From IMG/VR virus record IMGVR_UViG_3300033148_006761, positions 1-38,898 of that record: DNA of 38,898 nt, one strand, 5' to 3'. The DNA comes from a virus. Below are positions 1,228-27,959 of this stretch, piece after piece (the first letter of the stretch is position 1; every line of letters begins with the position of its first letter). A program made the position numbers and the translations under genes. The notes under the pieces were generated by a model. That model did no database searches, was not told the origin of the DNA, and saw only the letters and a list, made by a program, of their open reading frames with translations.

Positions 1228-1320
1228 TTACTTCTTCTTAGCCTTCTTTCGAACTTTCTTTTTGGCTTTCTTTGCAGCTTTTTTCTTAACTTTCTTTTTG
1301 TCTTCCTCTTTACTTTTCAA
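1228..1320 (-). pseudogene. Lysine-rich C-terminal tail remnant
   Basis: A 30-codon frame from TTG at 1320 to tandem TAA stops at 1228, almost wholly Lys and Ala (KKKVKKKAAKKAKKK and KKAKKK before the stop). Such tails occur at the C-terminus of histone H1-like or HU-like DNA-binding proteins. No ribosome site or folded domain precedes it, and the frame closes upstream near 1396. It is probably the leftover 3' end of a gene, or chance from a purine-rich tract. Confidence 0.3.
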
Positions 1321-1431
1321 AGCTATTGTTTGAATTTCTTGTTTGCCCTGATCTGACCCCGAATTATGTACCAACCTTGAACGACAAGCGGTTTACAAAA
1401 CCGCACCGCTGAAGCCAAAAAAATCCGTGTT

Positions 1432-1463
1432 AACTTGTGCCCATGTGCCTTAGGTAATAGGTA
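1432..1463 (+). repeat. 32-bp direct repeat, copy 1
   Basis: Identical over 32 bp to 1606-1637, starting AACTTGTGCCCATGTGCC. Part of it (TGTGCCTTAGGTAA) also occurs near 821. No coding frame explains it; it is a dispersed host repeat. Confidence 0.85.
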
Positions 1464-1605
1464 TCTGCGTTCATCTGTGGCTGGTAACCTTCGTGCCAAA
1501 AGGCACATCTGCGCAACCCGCGAAATCCGCGTCTAAATCAAAATTAAAATCTTGAGCTTCGCGAAATCCCGGCGCGCCGGGTCCCCGTCTAATCAAATCT
1601 GCGTA

Positions 1606-1637
1606 AACTTGTGCCCATGTGCCTTAGGTAATAGGTA
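1606..1637 (+). repeat. 32-bp direct repeat, copy 2
   Basis: Second exact copy of the element at 1432-1463, followed like the first by text of the CTGCGT/CATCYGTGGCT type, so the similarity decays beyond the core rather than ending sharply. Confidence 0.85.
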
Positions 1638-1763
1638 CCAGCGAAATCTGCGTCCATCCGTGGCTAACAATCTCCGTCCCCTCGGTGAACTCTGTGGCAA
1701 GTTAAACCACCGCCAAAAAAGCACTTGACGATAGGAATTGTCTATAATAAAAGTGCAAAAAAG

Positions 1764-2144: not shown

Positions 2145-3248
2145 TTAATCTAAAATAACAATATCTTCCGGCGTCGCTACCACGTCTTTACGCTGCGAGC
2201 CTAAAGCTTTTCGTATCTCTGTGCTGTGTTTGCCGGCCAGGGTTTTCAACTCGGCACTTCCCAGGCTCGTGACCGCCTTGGCCACATCGTTAAGCATGAC
2301 CACATCACCTGCTTTGAACACCCCCTCAACCGCGATTACGCCGCTTGGCAACAGGCTTTTACGCCTGCGCACAGCTTCAATGGCCCCGGCATCGATGGCA
2401 ATCGCACCGGCGGGAGCACTGTTTAATATCCACCTTGCACGGTTGCTGAGCTTGCGTCTCGGCATAAAGACTGTGCCGATTGCCCGTCCCGCCAAGATTC
2501 GGCCGATGACATTTCTTGCCCTGCCGTTGGCCAGGACTATCCTGCAGCCGGCATTTGAGGCAATCTTCACCGCTTCGATTTTGGTCTTCATACCCCCTAC
2601 CGCATACTTACTACCTCGCTTGCCGGCGGCACGCATAATCTGGTCGGTTATTCCATAAACCGTACTAATAGCTTTAGCATCAGCGAACTTCCGCGGATCC
2701 CTGTCATAAAGTGAGTCGATGTCGGTAAGCATAATCAGCAGGTCCGCGTCAATCTTGCTGGCAACGAGCGCGCTTAGCTTATCGTTATCCCCAAAGGCCG
2801 AGCCAATCTCATCAGTTGAGACGCTGTCATTCTCATTGAGTATAGGCACAACGCCAAGTTTCAGCAGCGTCTCCACCGAATTGCGAAGATTCAGATATGT
2901 CTTTCTGTTGTTGAGAACCTCAGCGGTCAGCAAGACCTGTGCGACCGGTATTCCATAGCGTGCAAAAGCCTTGCGGTATTCGGCCATCAGCAAAGGCTGG
3001 CCGATTGCCGCGCACGCCTGGCGCATCTTCATTTTCATGTCCAGGACCTGCTTGTTTAATTGCAGTTGTCCTGTGCCCATGCCGATGGCCCCGCTGCTGA
3101 TAATCACGACCTGTCTGCCCGTCGCCAGCAACGAGCCAATTTGCCCAACGATTCGGCGTACGTATGCGCTGTCAATCTTATCATCTTTGGTCAGCGTGTT
3201 GGTGCCGATCTTTATAACTATTCGCTTTGCCAGCTCAAAATCGCGCAT
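2145..3248 (-). CDS. proB: Glutamate 5-kinase
   Basis: First step of proline synthesis: ATP-dependent phosphorylation of L-glutamate to glutamyl 5-phosphate in the cytoplasm. The 367 residues equal the usual length. The amino acid kinase domain covers roughly 7-250, with KIGTNTLT near the N-terminus, SSGAIGMG, the glutamate-binding NENDSVSTDEIG loop and a GGMKTK segment. A C-terminal PUA domain (about 275-355) is present, as in the feedback-regulated enzymes. The start codon overlaps the proA stop by one base (TAATG), so translation is probably coupled. The unusual order proA then proB is a small local point. Confidence 0.97.
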   Translation of the reverse strand: MRDFELAKRIVIKIGTNTLTKDDKIDSAYVRRIVGQIGSLLATGRQVVIISSGAIGMGTGQLQLNKQVLDMKMKMRQACAAIGQPLLMAEYRKAFARYGIPVAQVLLTAEVLNNRKTYLNLRNSVETLLKLGVVPILNENDSVSTDEIGSAFGDNDKLSALVASKIDADLLIMLTDIDSLYDRDPRKFADAKAISTVYGITDQIMRAAGKRGSKYAVGGMKTKIEAVKIASNAGCRIVLANGRARNVIGRILAGRAIGTVFMPRRKLSNRARWILNSAPAGAIAIDAGAIEAVRRRKSLLPSGVIAVEGVFKAGDVVMLNDVAKAVTSLGSAELKTLAGKHSTEIRKALGSQRKDVVATPEDIVILD

Positions 3249-4546
3249 TAGAGTTTATATCCCTTATCGAGCTTCTTGTGAGTGAGTTTCCTTGCCTCTT
3301 TGCCACAGTATCGAGCTACGACATGACCATTACCCAACAAGCGCCACTTGTAAATTAATAAGCCTTCCATACCCACTGGTCCGCGTGCATGAATCTTATT
3401 GGTGCTGATGCCGACCTCGGCACCCAATCCGAAACGGTATCCATCACTAAAGCGGGTGCTGCAATTGAAAAATACATTGGCGGAGTCCACAAGGTCCATG
3501 AACTTTGCAGCATTGGCCTTGTTAGCTGTTACGATGGCATCCGTATGGCCTGAGCCGAACCTGTTTATGTGCTCAATCGCCTCATCGAGACTATTCACCA
3601 TTTTTATCGAGAGTATGTAGTCGAGATATTCCGTCTGCCAGTCTTCTTCGCTGGCTGGGGCAACATCTATTATTTTAACAGTTTCCGCGCATCCGCGGAG
3701 CCGGACACCTTTGGCCTCGAGGGCATCTTTAACCATAGGCAAAAAGTCTTTTGCGATTTCGCGGTGGACTAATAGGGTCTCCATCGCATTACACACCGCG
3801 CAGTACTGGCACTTAGAATCCAGGACTATATCAAGGCCCATATCAAGCTGAGCCTCGGCATCAACGTAAACATGGCATATCCCGTCAGCGTGGCCGAGGA
3901 CGGGGATATTCGTATTATTCATTATATGGCGGACAAATTCATTGCTGCCGCGAGGTACAATCAGGTCGATGAATTCGTCCATACTGAGCATCTCGGCAAC
4001 GTCGGCCCGCGTTTCTAATAGGCCGAGCCAGCCGGCGGGGATTGCGCAGCTTTCAGCTGCCTTGGTGATTATCTCGGCCAATATGCGGTTTGTATGAGCG
4101 GCTTCAGAGCCGCCTTTTAGTAGCACAGCGTTTCCGCTTTTCAGACAAAGGGCTGAAATCTGGACAAGGGCGTCAGGTCTTGATTCGAAGATGACGCCGA
4201 TGACGCCGATGGGACAACTGACTTTGTAAAGCTCAAGGCCATCATCTAACTCGGTAGAGTCGATTGTTCGGCCAACGGGGTCGGGCAGCTTTATCAGGCT
4301 TTCCAGGCCGGCACACGCGTCGGTGAGATTGCCGGCATCAAACTTGAGCCGTTTGAGCAAAGGAGCGGCGAGATTGTCCTTTTTGGCCTGGGCGAGGTCC
4401 TTTTGGTTGGCCCGTACGATGTTGTCTGCGCGGTTTTTGAGTGCAGCAACGATTACCGCAAGGGCCTTATTTTTGAGCTCTGCTTTCGCAGCGGCCAAGT
4501 GTATTGATGCCTGTTTGGCCGATGCTGCGATTTGGGCAATATCCAT
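3248..4546 (-). CDS. proA: Gamma-glutamyl phosphate reductase
   Basis: Second step of proline synthesis: NADPH-dependent reduction of glutamyl 5-phosphate to glutamate 5-semialdehyde. The 432 residues belong to the aldehyde dehydrogenase-like ProA family. Visible landmarks are GVIGVIFESRPDAL (115-127), SGNAVLLKGGSEA (137-149) and the catalytic Cys252 in CNAMETLLV. It is the first gene of a two-gene operon with proB. The substrate is channelled between the two enzymes in known systems. No prophage gene interrupts it, so it is host DNA. Confidence 0.97.
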   Translation of the reverse strand: MDIAQIAASAKQASIHLAAAKAELKNKALAVIVAALKNRADNIVRANQKDLAQAKKDNLAAPLLKRLKFDAGNLTDACAGLESLIKLPDPVGRTIDSTELDDGLELYKVSCPIGVIGVIFESRPDALVQISALCLKSGNAVLLKGGSEAAHTNRILAEIITKAAESCAIPAGWLGLLETRADVAEMLSMDEFIDLIVPRGSNEFVRHIMNNTNIPVLGHADGICHVYVDAEAQLDMGLDIVLDSKCQYCAVCNAMETLLVHREIAKDFLPMVKDALEAKGVRLRGCAETVKIIDVAPASEEDWQTEYLDYILSIKMVNSLDEAIEHINRFGSGHTDAIVTANKANAAKFMDLVDSANVFFNCSTRFSDGYRFGLGAEVGISTNKIHARGPVGMEGLLIYKWRLLGNGHVVARYCGKEARKLTHKKLDKGYKL

Positions 4547-4799
4547 TATGATAAACTCCAGAGATTCAAGATTTATTCTCGGCCATCCCCTGAGCCTATC
4601 GGTTCAGAGGATGTCAATCGTGGGGTGATTGTACCAAATCAGAGATTGTTAGCCAATAGTTTCGATAATAACGAATGTGCGGAATATGTCGTGTGTAGGG
4701 TCAAGCAACCCAGGTAACGCTTGGCTCGCCGTGGGCTATATCCCTGTGCCCCTTTGAGGCTTTGGTGAATTGTTTTGGGCAGCAACGGATTGATTTGGA

Positions 4800-4828
4800 T
4801 TGACAAACGGCGCTGTTTTACGTAACCT
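4800..4828 (+). promoter_or_regulatory. Candidate promoter of tRNA-Gly
   Basis: A perfect -35 box TTGACA (4800-4805), a 17-bp spacer, and a weak -10 TAACCT (4823-4828), placing transcription start about 15 bases before the tRNA. The remaining sequence from 4547 to 4799 shows no gene or strong signal. Confidence 0.45.
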
Positions 4829-4849
4829 TTCATAAATATAAAAACATGT

Positions 4850-4920
4850 GCGGGCGTAGCTTAATGGTAAAGCCCCAGCCTTCCAAGCTGGTCATGTGGG
4901 TTCGATTCCCATCGCCCGCT
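4850..4920 (+). tRNA. tRNA-Gly (anticodon UCC)
   Basis: A complete 71-base cloverleaf: acceptor stem GCGGGCG/CGCCCGC, a D-arm containing TAATGGTA, anticodon stem CCAGC/GCTGG with loop CTTCCAA (anticodon TCC at 4882-4884), and a T-arm with GGTTCGATTCC. The discriminator is T and CCA is not encoded. The integrase gene 110 bp downstream makes the 3' half the likely attB core. If so, the left end of the prophage regenerated an intact tRNA. Confidence 0.97.
4899..4920 (+). other. Probable attL core in the tRNA-Gly 3' end
   Basis: Tyrosine integrases of this kind usually recombine within the T-arm and acceptor 3' strand of a tRNA. The integrase sits directly beside this tRNA, and phage genes begin right after it. 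No duplicate of this segment is found up to 38898, so the site is inferred from position only. Confidence 0.5.
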
Positions 4921-4928
4921 TTTGAGCG

Positions 4929-4953
4929 TAAGTAACGGTGCAAGCGTTGCTTA
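4929..4953. terminator. Hairpin between tRNA-Gly and integrase
   Basis: TAAGTAACG and CGTTGCTTA pair over 9 bp with one wobble and a 7-base loop, starting 9 bases after the tRNA. There is no T run. It may end the tRNA transcript or be an integrase/excisionase arm site. Confidence 0.35.
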
Positions 4954-5029
4954 GCACAATCTGGAAAGCTGAGACCTTTTGTAGAGTGTTGAATTATTCC
5001 AAAGAATGTTCCAAAGTCTGGAGGTCTCG

Positions 5030-6085
5030 ATGGCATCGATACGATATTTGAAAAAAAGGAAACGCTGGCAAGTCCGCTGGCATATTACCAACCCGGAGGG
5101 CAGGGTTGATGTCGGCAGTAAGCTCCTTCCAAGAGGCTTTACACGGCCTGACGCCGAGCGTGAGCAGCGAAAGTACGAGCAATTGGCCCAAGACATCAAA
5201 TACGGCCGAAGGTTCTCACCGGAGAGCATAGGCAACGTTGTGCCCAAATGGCTGATATACAACCAGCGGCATACCGAACGGACACAAAAGCTTTATCAAA
5301 GAGTCATCGGATTGTTTGTTGCCGCCCTGCCGTCGAAGGTGAGATTTGTTGAACAAGTCAGCAGCAGGCATATCCACGATTACTTAGCTGGGATGCACGG
5401 TAGGAAACTGTCCAACCGCACGTGCAACACGCACTTGACGATCATCAAAAGTTTCTGCCGGTGGCTGGCCGAAATCTACCAAATCGACAACGTCGCGGCA
5501 GGAGTCAAGATGCTCAAACAGGATCCGCCCAAGCAACGATTTCTCACACCGGCCGAGTTCGCTACGGTCATGGCTATCGGTGATGAGTGTTTCCAACAGC
5601 GCGCCGGGTTCATTGCTCGTACAGGACTGCGAGCCACCGAATTTTGCTCGCTTACCTGGTCCTGCGTCAATTACGATGATATTGGCAAGATGGCAAGTAT
5701 CACCATCACCGGCAAGGGTCGCAAACGCCGGACGATACCCCTAAACGATGCCGCCCAAAAGATACTTTTGGAACTAAACGCATCAAGCCCAAACAATAAT
5801 ACACATATTTTTATATCAAAGAGCAGTAAAAAATCCATGAGAGGCAAGCCCATCGGGCGTAAGGCTTTTCTGCAGATGTGCATTAAAGTCGCTAATCAGG
5901 CCGGGGTGCCGCACTTCGGCCCGCACGCCTTGCGGCATTGGTTTGCGACTCAGCTTTTGCTCAAAGGTGTCCCTATTGCTCATGTCTCTCGCCTTTTGGG
6001 TCATTCTTCTATCAAAACCACCGAAAATATTTATATACATTTTCTGCCAACCGACTTAGCCGGAGTTACGGACTGTCTTGGTTAG
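5030..6085 (+). CDS. int: Phage integrase, tyrosine recombinase family
   Basis: Site-specific recombinase catalysing prophage integration and excision. The C-terminal catalytic domain (about 170-345) shows all active residues: Arg201 (TGLRATE), Lys229 in the GKGRKRR beta-hairpin, His299 and Arg302 (HALRH), His325 (LGHSS) and nucleophile Tyr335 (TTENIYIHF). Residues about 65-160 are a SAM-like core-binding domain, and the first 60 residues are a basic arm-binding type. I chose ATG 5030 because GGAGGT lies 5 bases upstream; an ATG at 5006 in the same frame has no ribosome site. Its 3' end overlaps the opposing gene at 6056 by 30 bp. Confidence 0.96.
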   Translation: MASIRYLKKRKRWQVRWHITNPEGRVDVGSKLLPRGFTRPDAEREQRKYEQLAQDIKYGRRFSPESIGNVVPKWLIYNQRHTERTQKLYQRVIGLFVAALPSKVRFVEQVSSRHIHDYLAGMHGRKLSNRTCNTHLTIIKSFCRWLAEIYQIDNVAAGVKMLKQDPPKQRFLTPAEFATVMAIGDECFQQRAGFIARTGLRATEFCSLTWSCVNYDDIGKMASITITGKGRKRRTIPLNDAAQKILLELNASSPNNNTHIFISKSSKKSMRGKPIGRKAFLQMCIKVANQAGVPHFGPHALRHWFATQLLLKGVPIAHVSRLLGHSSIKTTENIYIHFLPTDLAGVTDCLG

Positions 6086-13823: not shown

Positions 13824-15473
13824 CTATTTATAAAAACTGGCTGGCCTTGGAGGTCTGCCAGTCCGTGATTGGTAAGCCAATCCGCGGGCCATTTTATTTA
13901 AAATATAATTGGTCTTATTGATTGCCTGCACCTCCTCATAAGTGAGTCTTTCGAGTTTTAACAACGGGCTTGGGGCGCCGGGCGCAAACGTCAGGAATGG
14001 TGCCTCACGCATTGTCCGCCCACCCTTCGTGCCCTCTCCAAGTGCAGATAAAATATTGTCCCAAGGTGTTTTTGGATTTATTGGTCTTGGAACATCTTCG
14101 CCGGGACGCTTTCCGCCGCCCCTTAATTCTGCATGAAATTTTTGTTCTCTCTCATTTATCAACCTATAAAGGTCTTTTTCCAAAACCGCTATGGTTTCTT
14201 TTAATGTTTTACCAATAAATTCTTTGCCCGCTATTTTCCGGCCAAGATTGAAAATCAAACCAAGGGGCGTATGCGACCATAAATCATATAAAATTTTGGC
14301 TGCCCTCATCGCCTGTAATGTCATCGATGTCATTGCCGTGTCCCAGGTCAGTTGCATATTCCTGATGTCGAATGCAACACCCTGCAGTGTGATTGTCAGG
14401 TCATCGAGATAGCTTTTGAGCGGACCTTTTTGCATATCATAAAAGGACAGCTTGATGTCACCCAGAACAGATCTGATCCTCGTCAGCGAACCGGCGACGT
14501 TATTTAGTTGCTTCTCGGCTATCTCCTGGGCCGTGCCACCCGCATTGCGAAGGTCCTTTTCATAATCACGAATCGCGGCACTGCCCTCATTCAGCATGGC
14601 CGCCATGCCGGGACCTGCACGTTTGCCGAATATCTGCATAAGCGTCGCCGTCTGTTCGGCCTTGCCCATCCCTGCCATCGACCGATTAAAGTCGTCGATA
14701 ATATCAGCCAGTGGTTTTAAGGCGCCATCCAGCCCCACCGTCTCGATGCCGAGTTTGGCGAGTCCTTTTTCGGCGGCGGTGCTGCCTTTACTTAGTGCCG
14801 TTAATATCTGCCGCAAGGATGTACCCGCCTGCGATGCCTGAACACCGGCGTTACTCATTACCTGTATCGCCGCGGTTAGTTCGACCAGGTCTTTTCCCGC
14901 CGTCCTGCCAATCGGCCCGACATAGCTCATCGCCTCGCCCAACTGGACAAGGTCGGTATTTGCTGTTGTAAACGCCCTTGCCAACACATCTACGGAAAAT
15001 CCCACATCGTCGGCGCTGATACCCAGCCCCTTCATAATCTTGGCTGTGATGTCGGCCGCCTGTGCAATTTCTAATTGACCGGCCGCCGCCAGGTTCAGAG
15101 TAGCCGGCATTGCACGGATTATTTCGTTGACCTTAAATCCGGCCAACGCCAGAAAATTCATACCATCGGCCGCCTCTTTTGCTGTAAAGGCCGTTGTGGC
15201 GCCGAGCCTTTTGGCCGTATCTATAAGGCGCTCCTGATCCTCGGCCGTTGACTGGGAGAGTACTCCGACCCTGCTCATGGTTTTTTCAAATTCCATACCG
15301 AATTTCAGTATTGACCCCACCTGGCGAACGCCGATATATGTAGTAAGCCCCATCGCAAGATATTTGAGATGGCCCCCGAGGGCGCGTGATGATTTTCCGA
15401 TCAAACCCATCTTTCGGCTGGCCTCATCGCGGACCCTAATCAGCATCTCGACTAAATGACTTCTTTTTGCCAT
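13824..15473 (-). CDS. Tail tape measure protein
   Basis: Determines tail length and is ejected with the DNA. The 549 residues show the TP901-type core: amphipathic N-terminal region, then GVLSQSTAEDQERLIDTAKRLGATTAFTAKEAADGMNFLALAGF and LGISADD followed by alanine-rich helices to about residue 310 (MSNAGVQASQAGTSLRQIL). Predicted tail length near 80 nm at 1.5 angstrom per residue, short for a siphovirus. The start overlaps the stop of the chaperone extension (TGATATG), matching the order chaperone-tape measure seen in most long-tailed phages. Confidence 0.93.
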   Translation of the reverse strand: MAKRSHLVEMLIRVRDEASRKMGLIGKSSRALGGHLKYLAMGLTTYIGVRQVGSILKFGMEFEKTMSRVGVLSQSTAEDQERLIDTAKRLGATTAFTAKEAADGMNFLALAGFKVNEIIRAMPATLNLAAAGQLEIAQAADITAKIMKGLGISADDVGFSVDVLARAFTTANTDLVQLGEAMSYVGPIGRTAGKDLVELTAAIQVMSNAGVQASQAGTSLRQILTALSKGSTAAEKGLAKLGIETVGLDGALKPLADIIDDFNRSMAGMGKAEQTATLMQIFGKRAGPGMAAMLNEGSAAIRDYEKDLRNAGGTAQEIAEKQLNNVAGSLTRIRSVLGDIKLSFYDMQKGPLKSYLDDLTITLQGVAFDIRNMQLTWDTAMTSMTLQAMRAAKILYDLWSHTPLGLIFNLGRKIAGKEFIGKTLKETIAVLEKDLYRLINEREQKFHAELRGGGKRPGEDVPRPINPKTPWDNILSALGEGTKGGRTMREAPFLTFAPGAPSPLLKLERLTYEEVQAINKTNYILNKMARGLAYQSRTGRPPRPASFYK

Positions 15474-15474
15474 A

Positions 15475-15825
15475 TCAGAATATCCCTAATTTTCTTTTGT
15501 ACTGGCCCTCAAGATTGAAAATATATTCAGCCGCCTCGACAAACGAGTGCGCCTGGTCAAGTGCACCGCCTGCCACCGGAGGCAGTCCCTTCTCGTATAA
15601 ATGAGCCAGTTTTATTACAAACCAAATATCGCTCGTTATATAATCCAACGGGCAGCAGGCAATCTCGAATTTACCCGTCTCATTACATTCACCACAGCCA
15701 CCGCCGCCGCAGACAACACAGTCATCCGTCAGCGGCTCTATTTGTGTCGGCGGGTCTTTGCACGCTTCTTGGCCCTTGCAGTCTTTGCAGACCTGCCCGA
15801 ACCGGAGCCCGATGGCAACTTTAAT
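15475..15825 (-). CDS. Tail assembly chaperone extension (T part), read by -1 frameshift
   Basis: An open frame of 116 codons, in the -1 frame relative to the preceding chaperone, running from the A9 slippery run to TGA 15475, which overlaps the tape measure start. In the first 59 codons there is no ATG, GTG or TTG, so it cannot plausibly start by itself. The product is Cys-rich: CKDCKGQEAC, then CVVCGGGGCGEC, then CC, suggesting a zinc-binding fold somewhat like the DnaJ zinc centre, followed by a helical domain (ITSDIWFVIKLAHLYEKG). A fusion of 234 residues (118 + 116) is expected, in the role of lambda gpGT, which binds the tape measure protein. Confidence 0.75.
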   Translation of the reverse strand: MKVAIGLRFGQVCKDCKGQEACKDPPTQIEPLTDDCVVCGGGGCGECNETGKFEIACCPLDYITSDIWFVIKLAHLYEKGLPPVAGGALDQAHSFVEAAEYIFNLEGQYKRKLGIF

Positions 15826-16178
15826 TTTTTTTTACTATCAACCGACAGGGTGGATGCACTCGACGTAACAAGCAGTTCCGTTGCCTCGGCTAAAGTCAAT
15901 ATATCCTCTAACGCCTCCGCCCTAAATACTATCGGTTTGCCGGCCAGGTCCATCATGTTCTCCCAGCCGACCAAGCCGACCCTGCAGGCGTCGAAGATTT
16001 TGTCCATAACCTCTTTATTTTTGAATGTTTCCAGCTTGCTCATCACATCCGTAACTTGTTCCCACTGCCTGGCTGTCAGATAGTGATAAATAAAACGCGG
16101 CTGTTCGGCCTCCGGTTTCGCCTTGTCCGATTCAAGAACTATCTTAAATGTCGCTTCCGGGTCAGTTGCTATCGGCAT
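15738..16178 (-). CDS. Tail assembly chaperone (G part)
   Basis: A protein of 146 residues, the counterpart of lambda gpG. Mostly helical (residues 30-105, with ESDKAKPEAEQPRFIYHYLTARQW then helices and an alanine-rich segment). It ends with a Lys/Arg tail after the slippery run (KKLKLPSGSGSGR...). The in-frame product is made most of the time; a -1 shift at codons 116-118 gives the longer GT form. It lies between tail tube and tape measure genes, as expected. Sequence similarity to a named chaperone family is not claimed; position, size and frameshift signal are the evidence. Confidence 0.75.
   Translation of the reverse strand: MPIATDPEATFKIVLESDKAKPEAEQPRFIYHYLTARQWEQVTDVMSKLETFKNKEVMDKIFDACRVGLVGWENMMDLAGKPIVFRAEALEDILTLAEATELLVTSSASTLSVDSKKKLKLPSGSGSGRSAKTARAKKRAKTRRHK
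15825..15833 (-). promoter_or_regulatory. A9 slippery site for programmed -1 frameshift
   Basis: On the minus strand AGT-AAA-AAA-AAA-TTA: nine A residues read as Lys116-118 of the chaperone. Slipping back one base changes TTA to ATT and enters the long extension frame. A-AAA-AAA is an efficient slippery heptamer in bacteria. The chaperone-tape measure position is where such shifts are known to occur. Confidence 0.75.
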
Positions 16179-16371
16179 CTGTTTTGCCTCCTTGTCCTGA
16201 GCTTGCCGAAGGGCTTTTGGCCTTTAATTTTTCGGCATATCTTTTCTTTGTCGCTTCATCCAGCGAGTTCCAGATTCTTAGAATCTGATCATTCGTTGCA
16301 TTCTCGAAACCACCGTGATTTTCGCAAACCATCTGCCGAATCTTCGGATCTAAATTTTTCTTTTTAGCCAT
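16162..16371 (-). CDS. Unknown 69-residue tail-region protein
   Basis: A small basic protein (MAKKKNLDPKIRQM...) with a predicted pair of helices over residues 8-50. The ribosome site GGGAG lies 7 bases before ATG. The last 20 codons are built from a dispersed repeat (CCTGAGCTTGCCGAAGG, 16196-16212), giving SPSASSGQGGK. It overlaps the chaperone start by 17 bp. No family is recognised. Confidence 0.5.
   Translation of the reverse strand: MAKKKNLDPKIRQMVCENHGGFENATNDQILRIWNSLDEATKKRYAEKLKAKSPSASSGQGGKTDADSN
16196..16212. repeat. Dispersed CCTGAGCTTGCCGAAGG element
   Basis: A 17-bp copy, inside the 3' end of the 69-residue gene, identical to 30731-30747; a diverged copy starts at 30055. It shows partial inverted symmetry (CCT...AGG). 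It is a dispersed element seen as inserted text in several places. Confidence 0.7.
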
Positions 16372-16382
16372 AAAACTCCCTT

Positions 16383-16438
16383 CTGTCCTCTGACTTCTGA
16401 CTTCTAACTTCTCACTTCTAACTTCTGACTTCTGTCAT
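16383..16438. repeat. Heptamer tandem repeat, 8 units (CTRACTT type)
   Basis: Eight 7-bp units in register: CTGTCCT, CTGACTT twice, CTAACTT, CTCACTT, CTAACTT, CTGACTT, CTGTCAT. It fills the space between two late genes and ends at the tail tube stop codon. Confidence 0.92.
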
Positions 16439-17373
16439 CACGTTACCGCGATTACAACCGAATCATCGCCCGAATCATGGTTGCACTGGCCAACGTATTT
16501 ATGTGTGACCTGCCCTTCGCGCTCGGCGTGCGGACACTCTACGATCTGGACCTTCGCCAGCGTTACTGTAATCGTATCGGTTCCATCGCTGAATATCGCC
16601 TCAATCGCGTGCTCGGTCCCTGCCCTGCGGATCCCGTCGAAGTCATAGGCTGCCACCAACTCGGCCTCCGGGTCGATTGTAATCTGCGGGTCGTTGTCGG
16701 TTATAATAAAGTGTGCAATTTCAGTTTCCGGCATAACATTCGACCTTAATACCGCAGCCGCGTTCGGGTCGGACCAGGGCACTACGACATTTTGCAGGTT
16801 CAAGCTCAGAGTATGTATCTTTTTGGCAACATTGTTAATCTTGAAGCTTATCAGGTGCATCGGCGCCCCTACCGCCGGCGCGTATTCCGGCAATCCCACA
16901 TCCGTTATCGGTGAAAGCAGCCCGTCGAGTTCACACGCCAGATATGCCCCACCGGCCCTTCCGGCCTCCCAGTCGAGTGTGATATTGCTCATCGCGCCAA
17001 AGAGCCTCTTTTTTATACCATCTATCGAACCATCGAGTGTCAAAGTCTTCCAGTTTGTAACAACACTCGTCACCTGGTACGACTCCGATGTCTTTTTCAG
17101 CCACGCTGTTTGCAGTAGTATCGCACAGCCCAGGCCCATACCGCTTGAGCCCGTACCCATCAAAGGTGTTCGAAACGAGCTGTGGCCCGTCTCGTTGCCG
17201 TGCAAGCCGACCTCTTTATTGCCGATATACAGGCCGCTGCCGGCCCGCTTGACATACTCAGCGGTCGACAATAACGAGAAGTCCTCGGCATAAATCGCCT
17301 GGTCCGGCGTCGTCTCGGCCGTCCCCGACGTCCCTTCTAACTTTATCTTTAACACCTTTTTTCTGTCTAACAT
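16438..17373 (-). CDS. Major tail tube protein
   Basis: A protein of 311 residues, alpha/beta with high beta content, in the position of the tail tube between the tail terminator and chaperone genes. Features include a Gly/Thr-rich N-terminal half (SSFRTPLMGTGSSGMGLGC), a middle ACELDGLLSPITDVGLPEYAP, and a beta-rich C-terminal part (VDFDGI-like AAYDFDGIRRAGTEHAIEAIFSDGTDTITVTLAK) that resembles Ig-like tube extensions. SD AGGGAATAAATC precedes the ATG. Assignment is by size, context and composition rather than by a signature motif. Confidence 0.75.
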   Translation of the reverse strand: MLDRKKVLKIKLEGTSGTAETTPDQAIYAEDFSLLSTAEYVKRAGSGLYIGNKEVGLHGNETGHSSFRTPLMGTGSSGMGLGCAILLQTAWLKKTSESYQVTSVVTNWKTLTLDGSIDGIKKRLFGAMSNITLDWEAGRAGGAYLACELDGLLSPITDVGLPEYAPAVGAPMHLISFKINNVAKKIHTLSLNLQNVVVPWSDPNAAAVLRSNVMPETEIAHFIITDNDPQITIDPEAELVAAYDFDGIRRAGTEHAIEAIFSDGTDTITVTLAKVQIVECPHAEREGQVTHKYVGQCNHDSGDDSVVIAVT

Positions 17374-17393: not shown

Positions 17394-17470
17394 CTGATTT
17401 CTGTTTTCTGACTTCTGTCGCCTGTCCTCTGTTCTCTGACTTCTGATCTCTAACTTCTAACTTCTGATTT
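17394..17470. repeat. Heptamer tandem repeat, 11 units
   Basis: Eleven consecutive 7-bp units in perfect register: CTGATTT, CTGTTTT, CTGACTT, CTGTCGC, CTGTCCT, CTGTTCT, CTGACTT, CTGATCT, CTAACTT twice, CTGATTT. It occupies the whole gap between the tail tube and tail terminator genes; the last unit contributes to the stop codon of the latter. Confidence 0.95.
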
Positions 17471-17948
17471 ATCCCTGCGTATAAGGGTCATTTTCCAGCG
17501 TCCTGTAAGTAACCGCCACCTCAATTGCAATTCCGGTCAGCCCCAATTCTTCGTCATCGAACGGCGCTGCATCGCCGACGTCCGTATCTATTGCATAGCC
17601 ACCACGTGTCGAATCAACCATCAATGCTTTTTCAATGTCCGCGGCCACCTGATTTTGCCTCGTATCTATCGTGACCGATGCAGTAATCGAGTCCATCACG
17701 ATGGCGGTTATTAAAAAATTCTGGACCCTGGTCTTTCTCATAACCTCCGACTCACCGCCGCCTCGGGCCATCTGGCTTACTAATACCGTCAGGTCGTCCC
17801 AGGGTGCGTTTTGAAAATCGACTCGTTTGGGCCGAAGCGCGTTCAGCGTCTGGTTATATTCTTTGCCCTGAACCTCAACACCGGCTATCACACTGTTAAT
17901 GGCATCGTTGACATTCGCGGCAATCTTTTCGACAATCGGCACAGCCAT
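17469..17948 (-). CDS. Tail terminator or completion protein
   Basis: A protein of 159 residues of gpU-like size and position, between GpZ-like and tail tube genes. The N-terminal helix and segment YNQTLNALRPKRVDFQNAPWDDLTVLV, followed by RKTRVQNFLITAIVMDSITAS and a beta-rich end VTYRTLENDPYTQG, fit the head-tail connector/terminator fold. The ATG overlaps the stop of the upstream gene by one base. The assignment is based mainly on gene order. Confidence 0.65.
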   Translation of the reverse strand: MAVPIVEKIAANVNDAINSVIAGVEVQGKEYNQTLNALRPKRVDFQNAPWDDLTVLVSQMARGGGESEVMRKTRVQNFLITAIVMDSITASVTIDTRQNQVAADIEKALMVDSTRGGYAIDTDVGDAAPFDDEELGLTGIAIEVAVTYRTLENDPYTQG

Positions 17949-25796: not shown

Positions 25797-27335
25797 TTAC
25801 GCCGTGTTCTTTTGCATCGTCCTTTGGTCGAGACTCTTGCAGCCGACATCGTGGTAAACCCGGTAAACAAGCCCTAAGACATCCGGGCCGGGGTTGAACC
25901 TCTCGACCGTCGGCTGTTGTTTGCCGTTCAGGAACGCGACCTCGATAGTATCGCAGACCGCAGGATCGCCCGTCACATACCAGCTCGTCGCCGAATATCC
26001 GGTATAGCCTGAATTCGACAGTCTCGGCTCGACCACTTCCTTAAGAGCTCCTTTGTTGATATTGGCTGAGCCTTTTGTGGTGACGGCGCCGGCGGTGCCG
26101 GCCATGATCATGTAGTCGCTCTGCAGCAGTTGCTTGGCCGTCCCTCTAAGTGCCGGTGGCACCAACAGGAATTTCGGCTCGACGTTGATCGGCTGGCCAT
26201 CCTTGTCGGTCTGGTTCATGTAGGCCGCTATCGCCGCCGTCAGTGTCGCCTCGGCCAAGGCAGATGATGTGTTCAGGTTGCTGTGGTCGGCATGGAAGAG
26301 CGCTACACCATCATCCATATTGCCGTTGGCCAGAAGATGCACATAGACTAATTTGGCTATCAATAGTGCAGCCTTCAAACCCAGCCTCAAGGGTGTCTTT
26401 GTGAAAACGCCCATATCATCGTTGATGATATTCTGGCGGGTAATCCCGAACGTCTTGGCGTAGGTTGCAATGTTGTACTGCTCTTTTTCATCGGTTGCCC
26501 CGCCCTTCGACACCTCACCTGAGTTGCCGACCTCCACTAACTCGCCGGTGTCGGTCAGCCGGGCCCTTGTTATCGTCTTGAAGTCCGGTGCCGAGCCGAT
26601 ATTGCACCATACCTTCCAGGTGTTCGGCGCCGAGTTGTAACCCTTCAGGACGCTCTTGTTGACGATTGCGCCTAATATCGTCGGCAGAGAAGCCGTCGAA
26701 AAGGCCGCCCGAATCGTCTCATCCCGGCCGGGCGGTATCTCGCGACCATCTAATGAGATCGCCATCCGGCACAAATCGAGGACGCTCGTATCACGGTACC
26801 TGTCGGCACGTCCCGCCCTTTCTTCGCCTTCGGCCTCGGCCAAGACGACGTCCTCGAATCCGGCACGCAGGCACATCGCATCGACGAGCATGTCCCTGGT
26901 CACATCGGATGAGTTGACGATGATCCCCGGCCCTGCGCTGACTCCGGCTTCGCGGCCCTGCCGGATGTGCTGCAACACCTGCGTCTGGACGGCCTCGATA
27001 CCGGTTCCATCGGCGATGAACTTATCGACACGCTCTGTGGGCATATCGTCACCGCAAAGCTGTTTAATATCGCTGATGCGCTTGCGCTCAGCCGCCACAG
27101 CCTCAGTCGCCACCTTTGCCGGATCGGGCGCCGTTGCCGTCGCAGTCTGCGCATCGGCCGCGGTCCTCTGCAACTCGGCTGCCACCTCCTGTTCTGCTTT
27201 TAGTTCCGCCTCTTTCTCGGCCGCAGCTCTTGCCTGCTCGGCGTCGAAATCGGCCCGTAAGGCCTCGCGCTGACTCTCCTCAAGTGAGTCATAGTCAAGG
27301 TCCCTTTGCTTTAACCATTCCTTAAATTCGTTCAT
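25797..27335 (-). CDS. Nested scaffold-capsid product (internal start)
   Basis: An internal ATG (residue 209 of the fusion, MNEFKEWLKQ) is preceded by AAGGAG 9 bases upstream and by AGGAACT, giving a 512-residue scaffold plus capsid chain without protease. Lambda Nu3 inside C is the known parallel. The signal is far better than chance, and no other Shine-Dalgarno site is needed for the capsid chain. Confidence 0.6.
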   Translation of the reverse strand: MNEFKEWLKQRDLDYDSLEESQREALRADFDAEQARAAAEKEAELKAEQEVAAELQRTAADAQTATATAPDPAKVATEAVAAERKRISDIKQLCGDDMPTERVDKFIADGTGIEAVQTQVLQHIRQGREAGVSAGPGIIVNSSDVTRDMLVDAMCLRAGFEDVVLAEAEGEERAGRADRYRDTSVLDLCRMAISLDGREIPPGRDETIRAAFSTASLPTILGAIVNKSVLKGYNSAPNTWKVWCNIGSAPDFKTITRARLTDTGELVEVGNSGEVSKGGATDEKEQYNIATYAKTFGITRQNIINDDMGVFTKTPLRLGLKAALLIAKLVYVHLLANGNMDDGVALFHADHSNLNTSSALAEATLTAAIAAYMNQTDKDGQPINVEPKFLLVPPALRGTAKQLLQSDYMIMAGTAGAVTTKGSANINKGALKEVVEPRLSNSGYTGYSATSWYVTGDPAVCDTIEVAFLNGKQQPTVERFNPGPDVLGLVYRVYHDVGCKSLDQRTMQKNTA

Positions 27336-27959
27336 AGTTCCTGTCTCCTTTTTATTTACAAAATTACCGTTAAGCTCTCTATGCTTTGCAGCCTGGTCCG
27401 CACCTATCGGGACAAGGCTGTTTTCCCGCACTTCCCACTCCAGACCGATTCGCAGGTTGCGCTGTGGTGATGCGCTGAACAGGCGACCCGCGACGGTGGC
27501 GGATTTGCCCTTTTCAATCATCACACTGTTTAGAACTCTGTAACCGATTGAGTTGTCCGTCAGATGCCCCTCTCTAATCAGCGTCCAAGCATGGTCCGCC
27601 TCGGCCGAGTTGCTGATAAAATTTCTGCCGACCAGTTCCTTGCCCTCTACGTGGGTGTTTCGCGTAGAGCCAACCTGCCTTTGAATTGAATACCTGTCGT
27701 GTGTATCGAGCAGCGGTACCTGCCCACCTTCCGGTATCCTGACGCCGCTCATAAGGAGTATCTCGTCAATTATCTCGAACCGGCTCCAGTCAACAACCGT
27801 CACCATAGCCTCGGTCGCAATCACCGCCTCGACACTGCGGTTCTCTTGATCTATCGTGCTAAGATTTAGTCGATACTCGCGAGTTGTCAGGTCGCATTGG
27901 ATTTTGTGACCGGTCGCCGCCGGCGGAGCCGCAACTGCAGTTTCTCTTTTTGTCAGCAT
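25797..27959 (-). CDS. Prohead protease-scaffold-major capsid fusion protein
   Basis: A protein of 720 residues. Residues about 20-185 are a prohead serine protease of the S78/U35 type, with PLLDTHDR (His87) and NSIGY (Ser137). Residues 209-290 are a Gln/Glu/Ala-rich coiled coil (scaffold-like, EEAQARAAAEKEAELKAEQE type). Residues about 310-720 are a major capsid protein of the Mu-like gpT type, with KTFGITRQNIINDDMGVFTKTP and GYTGYSATSWYVTGDPAV. Fusion of protease and capsid protein into one chain is known in some prophages. An internal start at 27335 is discussed separately. Confidence 0.88.
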   Translation of the reverse strand: MLTKRETAVAAPPAATGHKIQCDLTTREYRLNLSTIDQENRSVEAVIATEAMVTVVDWSRFEIIDEILLMSGVRIPEGGQVPLLDTHDRYSIQRQVGSTRNTHVEGKELVGRNFISNSAEADHAWTLIREGHLTDNSIGYRVLNSVMIEKGKSATVAGRLFSASPQRNLRIGLEWEVRENSLVPIGADQAAKHRELNGNFVNKKETGTMNEFKEWLKQRDLDYDSLEESQREALRADFDAEQARAAAEKEAELKAEQEVAAELQRTAADAQTATATAPDPAKVATEAVAAERKRISDIKQLCGDDMPTERVDKFIADGTGIEAVQTQVLQHIRQGREAGVSAGPGIIVNSSDVTRDMLVDAMCLRAGFEDVVLAEAEGEERAGRADRYRDTSVLDLCRMAISLDGREIPPGRDETIRAAFSTASLPTILGAIVNKSVLKGYNSAPNTWKVWCNIGSAPDFKTITRARLTDTGELVEVGNSGEVSKGGATDEKEQYNIATYAKTFGITRQNIINDDMGVFTKTPLRLGLKAALLIAKLVYVHLLANGNMDDGVALFHADHSNLNTSSALAEATLTAAIAAYMNQTDKDGQPINVEPKFLLVPPALRGTAKQLLQSDYMIMAGTAGAVTTKGSANINKGALKEVVEPRLSNSGYTGYSATSWYVTGDPAVCDTIEVAFLNGKQQPTVERFNPGPDVLGLVYRVYHDVGCKSLDQRTMQKNTA

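Follow-up and report, generated by a model that had tools for sequence, protein, structure and literature searches.

The closest described counterpart of the locus reported here is the G/GT pair of phage lambda, in which T is a -1 extension of G reached via a slippery heptamer, G_GGA_AAG, and stays open to near the start of the tape measure gene that follows. In lambda, the tape measure protein is bound by G as well as by GT, T attaches to the major tail protein, and neither G nor GT is part of the virion (PMC5009743). Frameshifting in two phage tail chaperone genes amounts to 6-7%, and A runs in another gene family gave 10% with seven A, 40% with nine and 63% with eleven (PMC3711429); runs of nine A also cause transcript slippage (PMC5009743). 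Little is understood of the structure of tail chaperone T domains, which are short and divergent. Here we describe an IMG/VR virus record (IMGVR_UViG_3300033148_006761; all of its 38,898 nucleotides are called the window below) with overlapping frames that, judged from their sequence, very likely form a G/GT frameshift pair. Its T resembles that of lambda in position and in the heptamer that leads into it, but carries two four-Cys sets and is matched by no tail family in the libraries searched.

Gene order and junction geometry

The genes in question belong to a minus-strand module that comprises a terminase-like ORF, a portal, a prohead protease/capsid fusion, genes for the neck and the terminator, a probable major tail gene and then G, T and the tape measure (Table 1). 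The calls for terminase and major tail protein come from ORF reading or position, without a strong family match. The order is that of a G/GT pair, with overlapping ORFs. Family matches identify the gene directly downstream as the tape measure, and the upstream gene (16438..17373) is assigned to the major tail protein by its position only, its product having no family match in PHROG, Pfam and NCBIfam searches.

G itself is matched by PHROG 313 (tail assembly chaperone) with E=1.1e-4, as is G in 4 of 18 relatives. Its AlphaFold model (pLDDT 77, with residues 11-110 above 80) has the HK97 tail assembly chaperone 2ob9 as its top Foldseek match (E=0.1), and the predicted fold is alike, the match being a modest one (VIA Z 5.3, rmsd 4.5 over 89 residues, 8% identity). 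The family match and the modelled fold agree with each other and with the position of the gene, and provide modest but consistent evidence that G is related to known tail chaperones.

The initial annotation had proposed a -1 frameshift in the G/GT arrangement at a run of nine A in codons 116-118 of the chaperone, and the run lies where it was placed. The frame behind it, described there as open and devoid of early ATG, GTG or TTG codons, is open for 118 codons up to a TGA (15477..15475), and the first such codon is a TTG at 15648, 58 codons past the run. The TGA had also been said to overlap the tape measure start; this was incorrect, as the tape measure ATG is at 15473 and one base separates the two. 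Three -1-frame stops stand ahead of the run, the TAA contributing its two A to the start of it, and ribosomes that initiated upstream in this frame would not reach T. The open T frame is not due to chance, and mono-nucleotide shuffles of the stretch keep it open in 0.14% of cases. A -1 shift at the run would fuse G and T into a protein of 234 aa (computed length). Downstream of the junction no conserved stimulatory RNA structure was detected (window z 0.11; alignment energy -0.5), and no Rfam family was found; A runs of this kind may not need such a structure.

Table 1. Coordinates of the features discussed (window positions unless a cultured phage is named).
Feature	Position	Strand	Basis or remark
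proB/proA-like ORFs	2145-4546		
tRNA	4850-4920		
Integrase-like ORF	5006-6085		reading of ORF
Tape measure protein, 549 aa	13824..15473	-	TIGR01760 (E=8e-64); PF10145; PHROG 1533
T, -1-frame extension with TGA stop	15475..15831	-	N half rich in Cys; C half helical, bearing LPPVAGGALDQ
Core set, last Cys and Pro (CP)	15649..15654	-	T residues 60-61; 70/71
Ribbon-like set, CVVCGGGGCGEC	15685..15720	-	T residues 38, 41, 46, 49; absent as a block in 9
Core set, first part (CxxC...C)	15760..15789	-	T residues 15, 18, 24; conserved in 69-70/71
Slippery run A9	15825..15833	-	AAA_AAA_AAA in 0-frame; -1 heptamer A_AAA_AAA; G codons 116-118
-1-frame stops TGA, TAG, TAA	15832..15840	-	offsets 338, 341, 344
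G, tail assembly chaperone, 146 aa, 0-frame	15738..16178	-	PHROG 313, fold and position before tape measure gene
69-aa ORF	16162-16371		overlaps G start; no convincing family match
Probable major tail protein	16438..17373	-	position only, between tail terminator-like gene and G
Tail terminator-like gene	17469-17948		PHROG 4204
Fusion of prohead protease and major capsid protein	25797-27959		NF045541, 483 bits, slightly below cut-off of 525
Portal		-	TIGR01539
Rhodobacter phage RcZahn (L243), probable frameshift extension	1327-1749		A_AAA_AAC in register
Alteromonas phage P24 (L244, MK241539), probable frameshift extension	1345-1683		A_AAA_AAC in register
Agrobacterium phage JP1 (L245), probable frameshift extension	1267-1728		A_AAA_AAC in register
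Microcystis phage Mae-JY22 (L152), probable frameshift extension	2348-2701		A_AAA_AAC in register

Slip site and open frame in relatives

Relatives were collected by one protein scan (21 loci) and an alignment-based scan (307 relatives matched, 80 loci kept); further prophages of Planctomycetota and Pseudomonadota came from whole-genome profile searches, and cultured phages were reached via a prophage query. After removal of duplicates, 71 distinct T sequences were left, the window's included. A slip site was scored when a 0-frame X_XXY_YYZ lay no more than eight codon positions from the junction. Such a heptamer is found in 70 of the 71, compared with 12 occurrences at the 6745 upstream codon positions that served as background, and in 69 it is a clean in-register -1 heptamer (L229 is excluded for its different relative frame, and L186 has none). 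The initial annotation had suggested that conservation of the slip site and of the open frame be looked for in relatives, and both are kept.

The heptamer is A_AAA_AAA in 53 sequences (L229 among them), A_AAA_AAC in 13, G_GGA_AAA in three (L185, L228 and L240), A_AAA_AAG in one (L178) and missing in one, counts that are not independent because the sequences are related. These forms are dispersed over divergent loci, the heptamer being retained while its letters changed. G_GGA_AAA differs by one base from the lambda site, and A_AAA_AAC is built on six or seven A in L179, L182, L175, Mae-JY22 and RcZahn. A9 is the commonest form among the window's close relatives and is invariant in a 12-locus DNA alignment; all Lys codons within A9 runs are AAA, versus 172 AAA and 131 AAG (43% AAG) elsewhere in the same genes. 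The extension evolves as a protein in its own frame, under purifying selection, with pN/pS in the T frame of 0.30 between the window and its closest relative (L002), 0.14 between L005 and L006 and a median of 0.49 over 136 pairs, in which synonymous sites are near saturation.

The fusion could be produced by the ribosome or by the RNA polymerase, and the A9 of the window cannot decide between them because runs of nine A are known for both frameshifting and transcript slippage. If the polymerase were mainly responsible, slippage on A9 would yield mRNA with an added A, and the GT product would be identical. Bacterial RNA polymerase is known to slip on runs of nine A (PMC5009743, PMC3711429), A9 prevails close to the window, and L229, with A10 and the other frame, is explained most easily by transcript slippage. 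However, the relatives in which six or seven A are followed by C (A_AAA_AAC) or G (A_AAA_AAG), or which have G_GGA_AAA, carry tandem-slip heptamers that are poor polymerase slip sites, and ribosomal tandem slippage is therefore favoured for the family. A fusion made mainly by the polymerase is thus unlikely, and transcriptional slippage could still contribute at the A9 of the window.

It is far less probable, and indeed very improbable, that T is translated on its own, after reinitiation or from an internal start, and never fused to G. The initial annotation had expected no separate start for the extension, which proved true of most relatives, in which no usable early start is present, but not of L224, L226 and a freshwater group. 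The first two have AAAATGATGAGG at the junction and could reinitiate at an ATG in T, the freshwater group has an ATG or TTG next to the G stop, seven codons inside T, and database records start T internally in Mae-JY22, RcZahn and JP1. In the window, however, no ATG, GTG or TTG occurs until beyond all Cys of both sets, a start there would delete the conserved Cys region, and the slippery heptamer is conserved.

Some junctions, all near 3001 of their loci, deserve mention. The G stop and two T ATG codons of L224 and L226 overlap at the slip site (AAAATGATGA), and a switch from frameshift to reinitiation is possible there. In L229 the run is A10 and T lies in the +1/-2 frame with respect to G, which may reflect a homopolymer assembly error or the use of a different shift by this phage. 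L186 is the sole relative with no clear slippery heptamer. In several relatives, the downstream ORFs gave no tape measure match.

Cysteine sets and structure of T

The Cys richness pointed out by the initial annotation takes the form of eight Cys in two sets, a core set at T residues 15, 18, 24 and 60, conserved in 69-70 of the 71 sequences, and a ribbon-like insert at residues 38, 41, 46 and 49, conserved in 61-62. Nine sequences are without the ribbon-like set and keep the core, namely L173 (a main-group sequence from the contig of L016), four Pseudomonadota prophages (L236-L239), Mae-JY22, RcZahn, P24 and JP1. Conversely, L121 keeps only the ribbon-type CxxC...CxxC pair, as read by eye (the automatic alignment placed its Cys differently). 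Such two-way loss of the sets as blocks would be expected of two four-Cys metal sites that are independent of each other. The insert has two conserved CxxC knuckles with partner Cys, and the loop between the knuckles varies in length (L182, L186 and L228), both as in a zinc ribbon. The conserved pattern and the block-wise loss suggest that the eight Cys likely form two zinc sites.

The Cys could instead bind an iron-sulfur cluster, form disulfides or act as a redox switch. Four-Cys sets can hold iron-sulfur clusters, and some hosts may be anaerobic sediment bacteria, judging from the relatives of the window's proA. On the other hand, the Gly-containing CxxC knuckles and the ribbon spacing resemble the Cys motifs of phenylalanyl-tRNA synthetase (PheRS) alpha and DnaJ, disulfides are unlikely in a cytoplasmic assembly factor, and each set is lost as a block; we regard a role other than zinc binding as rather improbable. 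The resemblance extends to a local CxxCxGxGCxxC...C shared by the ribbon stretch with PheRS alpha and the DnaJ CXXCXGXG motif. For PheRS alpha, the ribbon stretch of the T profile resembles the Cys motif with E=7e-4, with genome matches in PheS-like ORFs. The likeness is limited to this stretch, with a weak structural match (2rhq, Z 2.0), and is probably convergent.

The AlphaFold model of T has a pLDDT of 87.9 and no Foldseek match below E=1, and no solved fold matches it, the weak structural matches being 2rhq and anti-TRAP (2zp9). Searches of Pfam, NCBIfam and PHROGs gave no tail family match for T, and PHROG 25876 and PHROG 19003, both of unknown function, match it weakly. The C-terminal LPxxGGxxDQ part occurs also in Rhodococcus phage Mbo2, in a protein annotated as a frameshifted TMP chaperone (a weak match with E=8; the gene position agrees), whose T part, unlike that of the window, is free of Cys. 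Since the motif is present in a Cys-free T, we think that the general T domain is the helical C-terminal part, to which the Cys part has been added at the front.

By analogy with lambda, G of the window would bind the tape measure protein and T the major tail protein. A minority of ribosomes translating G would slip back by one base on A_AAA_AAA and make the 234-aa GT besides the 146-aa G, with RNA polymerase slippage at A9 possibly adding to GT. G would coat the tape measure protein, and GT would recruit the major tail protein through its T part. C15, C18, C24 and C60 would hold a structural zinc that ties an N-terminal linker to the helical T domain, the optional C38, C41, C46 and C49 would hold a second one, and the two sites would probably lend stability to the surface with which T binds the tail tube protein. 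We consider this explanation as a whole, with a -1 slip, lambda-like roles and two structural zinc ions, quite probable. A more speculative proposal, which we regard as doubtful, is that the zinc modules are an exchangeable docking or sensing element, in which the optional ribbon, acquired or lost as one block of four Cys, sets which tail tube protein is recruited or makes assembly dependent on zinc or redox state. The Cys-rich T offers a small, probably well-folded domain for studies of zinc, structure and tail tube binding.

Cultured relatives and host range

The core four-Cys T is present in at least four cultured phages, Rhodobacter phage RcZahn (gp28), Alteromonas phage P24, Agrobacterium phage JP1 and Microcystis phage Mae-JY22, which were reached via weak matches and the prophage query. 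As in the window, each has the CxxC...C...CP core, a C-terminal motif close to LPxxGGxxDQ and a tape measure gene next. Unlike the window, they have no ribbon-like Cys set. None of them is annotated as frameshifted, the extensions being unannotated or, in the database records of Mae-JY22, RcZahn and JP1, annotated from internal starts. The conserved Cys sets and the C-terminal motif thus provide a sequence handle for frameshifted chaperones that annotation has missed, as in these four. A match to Mycobacterium phage Saguaro gp16 was discarded, as no tape measure gene adjoins it. The eight-Cys form gave no matches or only sub-threshold ones in the cultured-phage collection (tblastn with the T part and several relatives).

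In whole-genome profile searches, four T loci were found in 392 genomes of Planctomycetota, four in 299 of Pseudomonadota and none in 289 of a third phylum, and a scan of genome contigs with one peptide pattern found none. About 95 remaining matches of a looser search were set aside; most cover the ribbon stretch only, and the two that were inspected are PheS-like. The initial annotation had called a zinc T domain unusual. We found no report of one in the open-access literature, and in that sense the remark stands, but prophages of Pseudomonadota share the core with the cultured phages above, and many uncultured phages have the eight-Cys form. The Cys-rich, zinc-type T is apparently a broad, widespread and undescribed variant that is not peculiar to the phage of the window, since the core Cys set is found in cultured phages as well.

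The window is probably a prophage of a planctomycete, because its proA ORF is nearest to Planctomycetota genomes (79% identity to L040). Its proB/proA-like ORFs, tRNA and integrase-like ORF, together spanning window 2145-6085, suggest a prophage junction.
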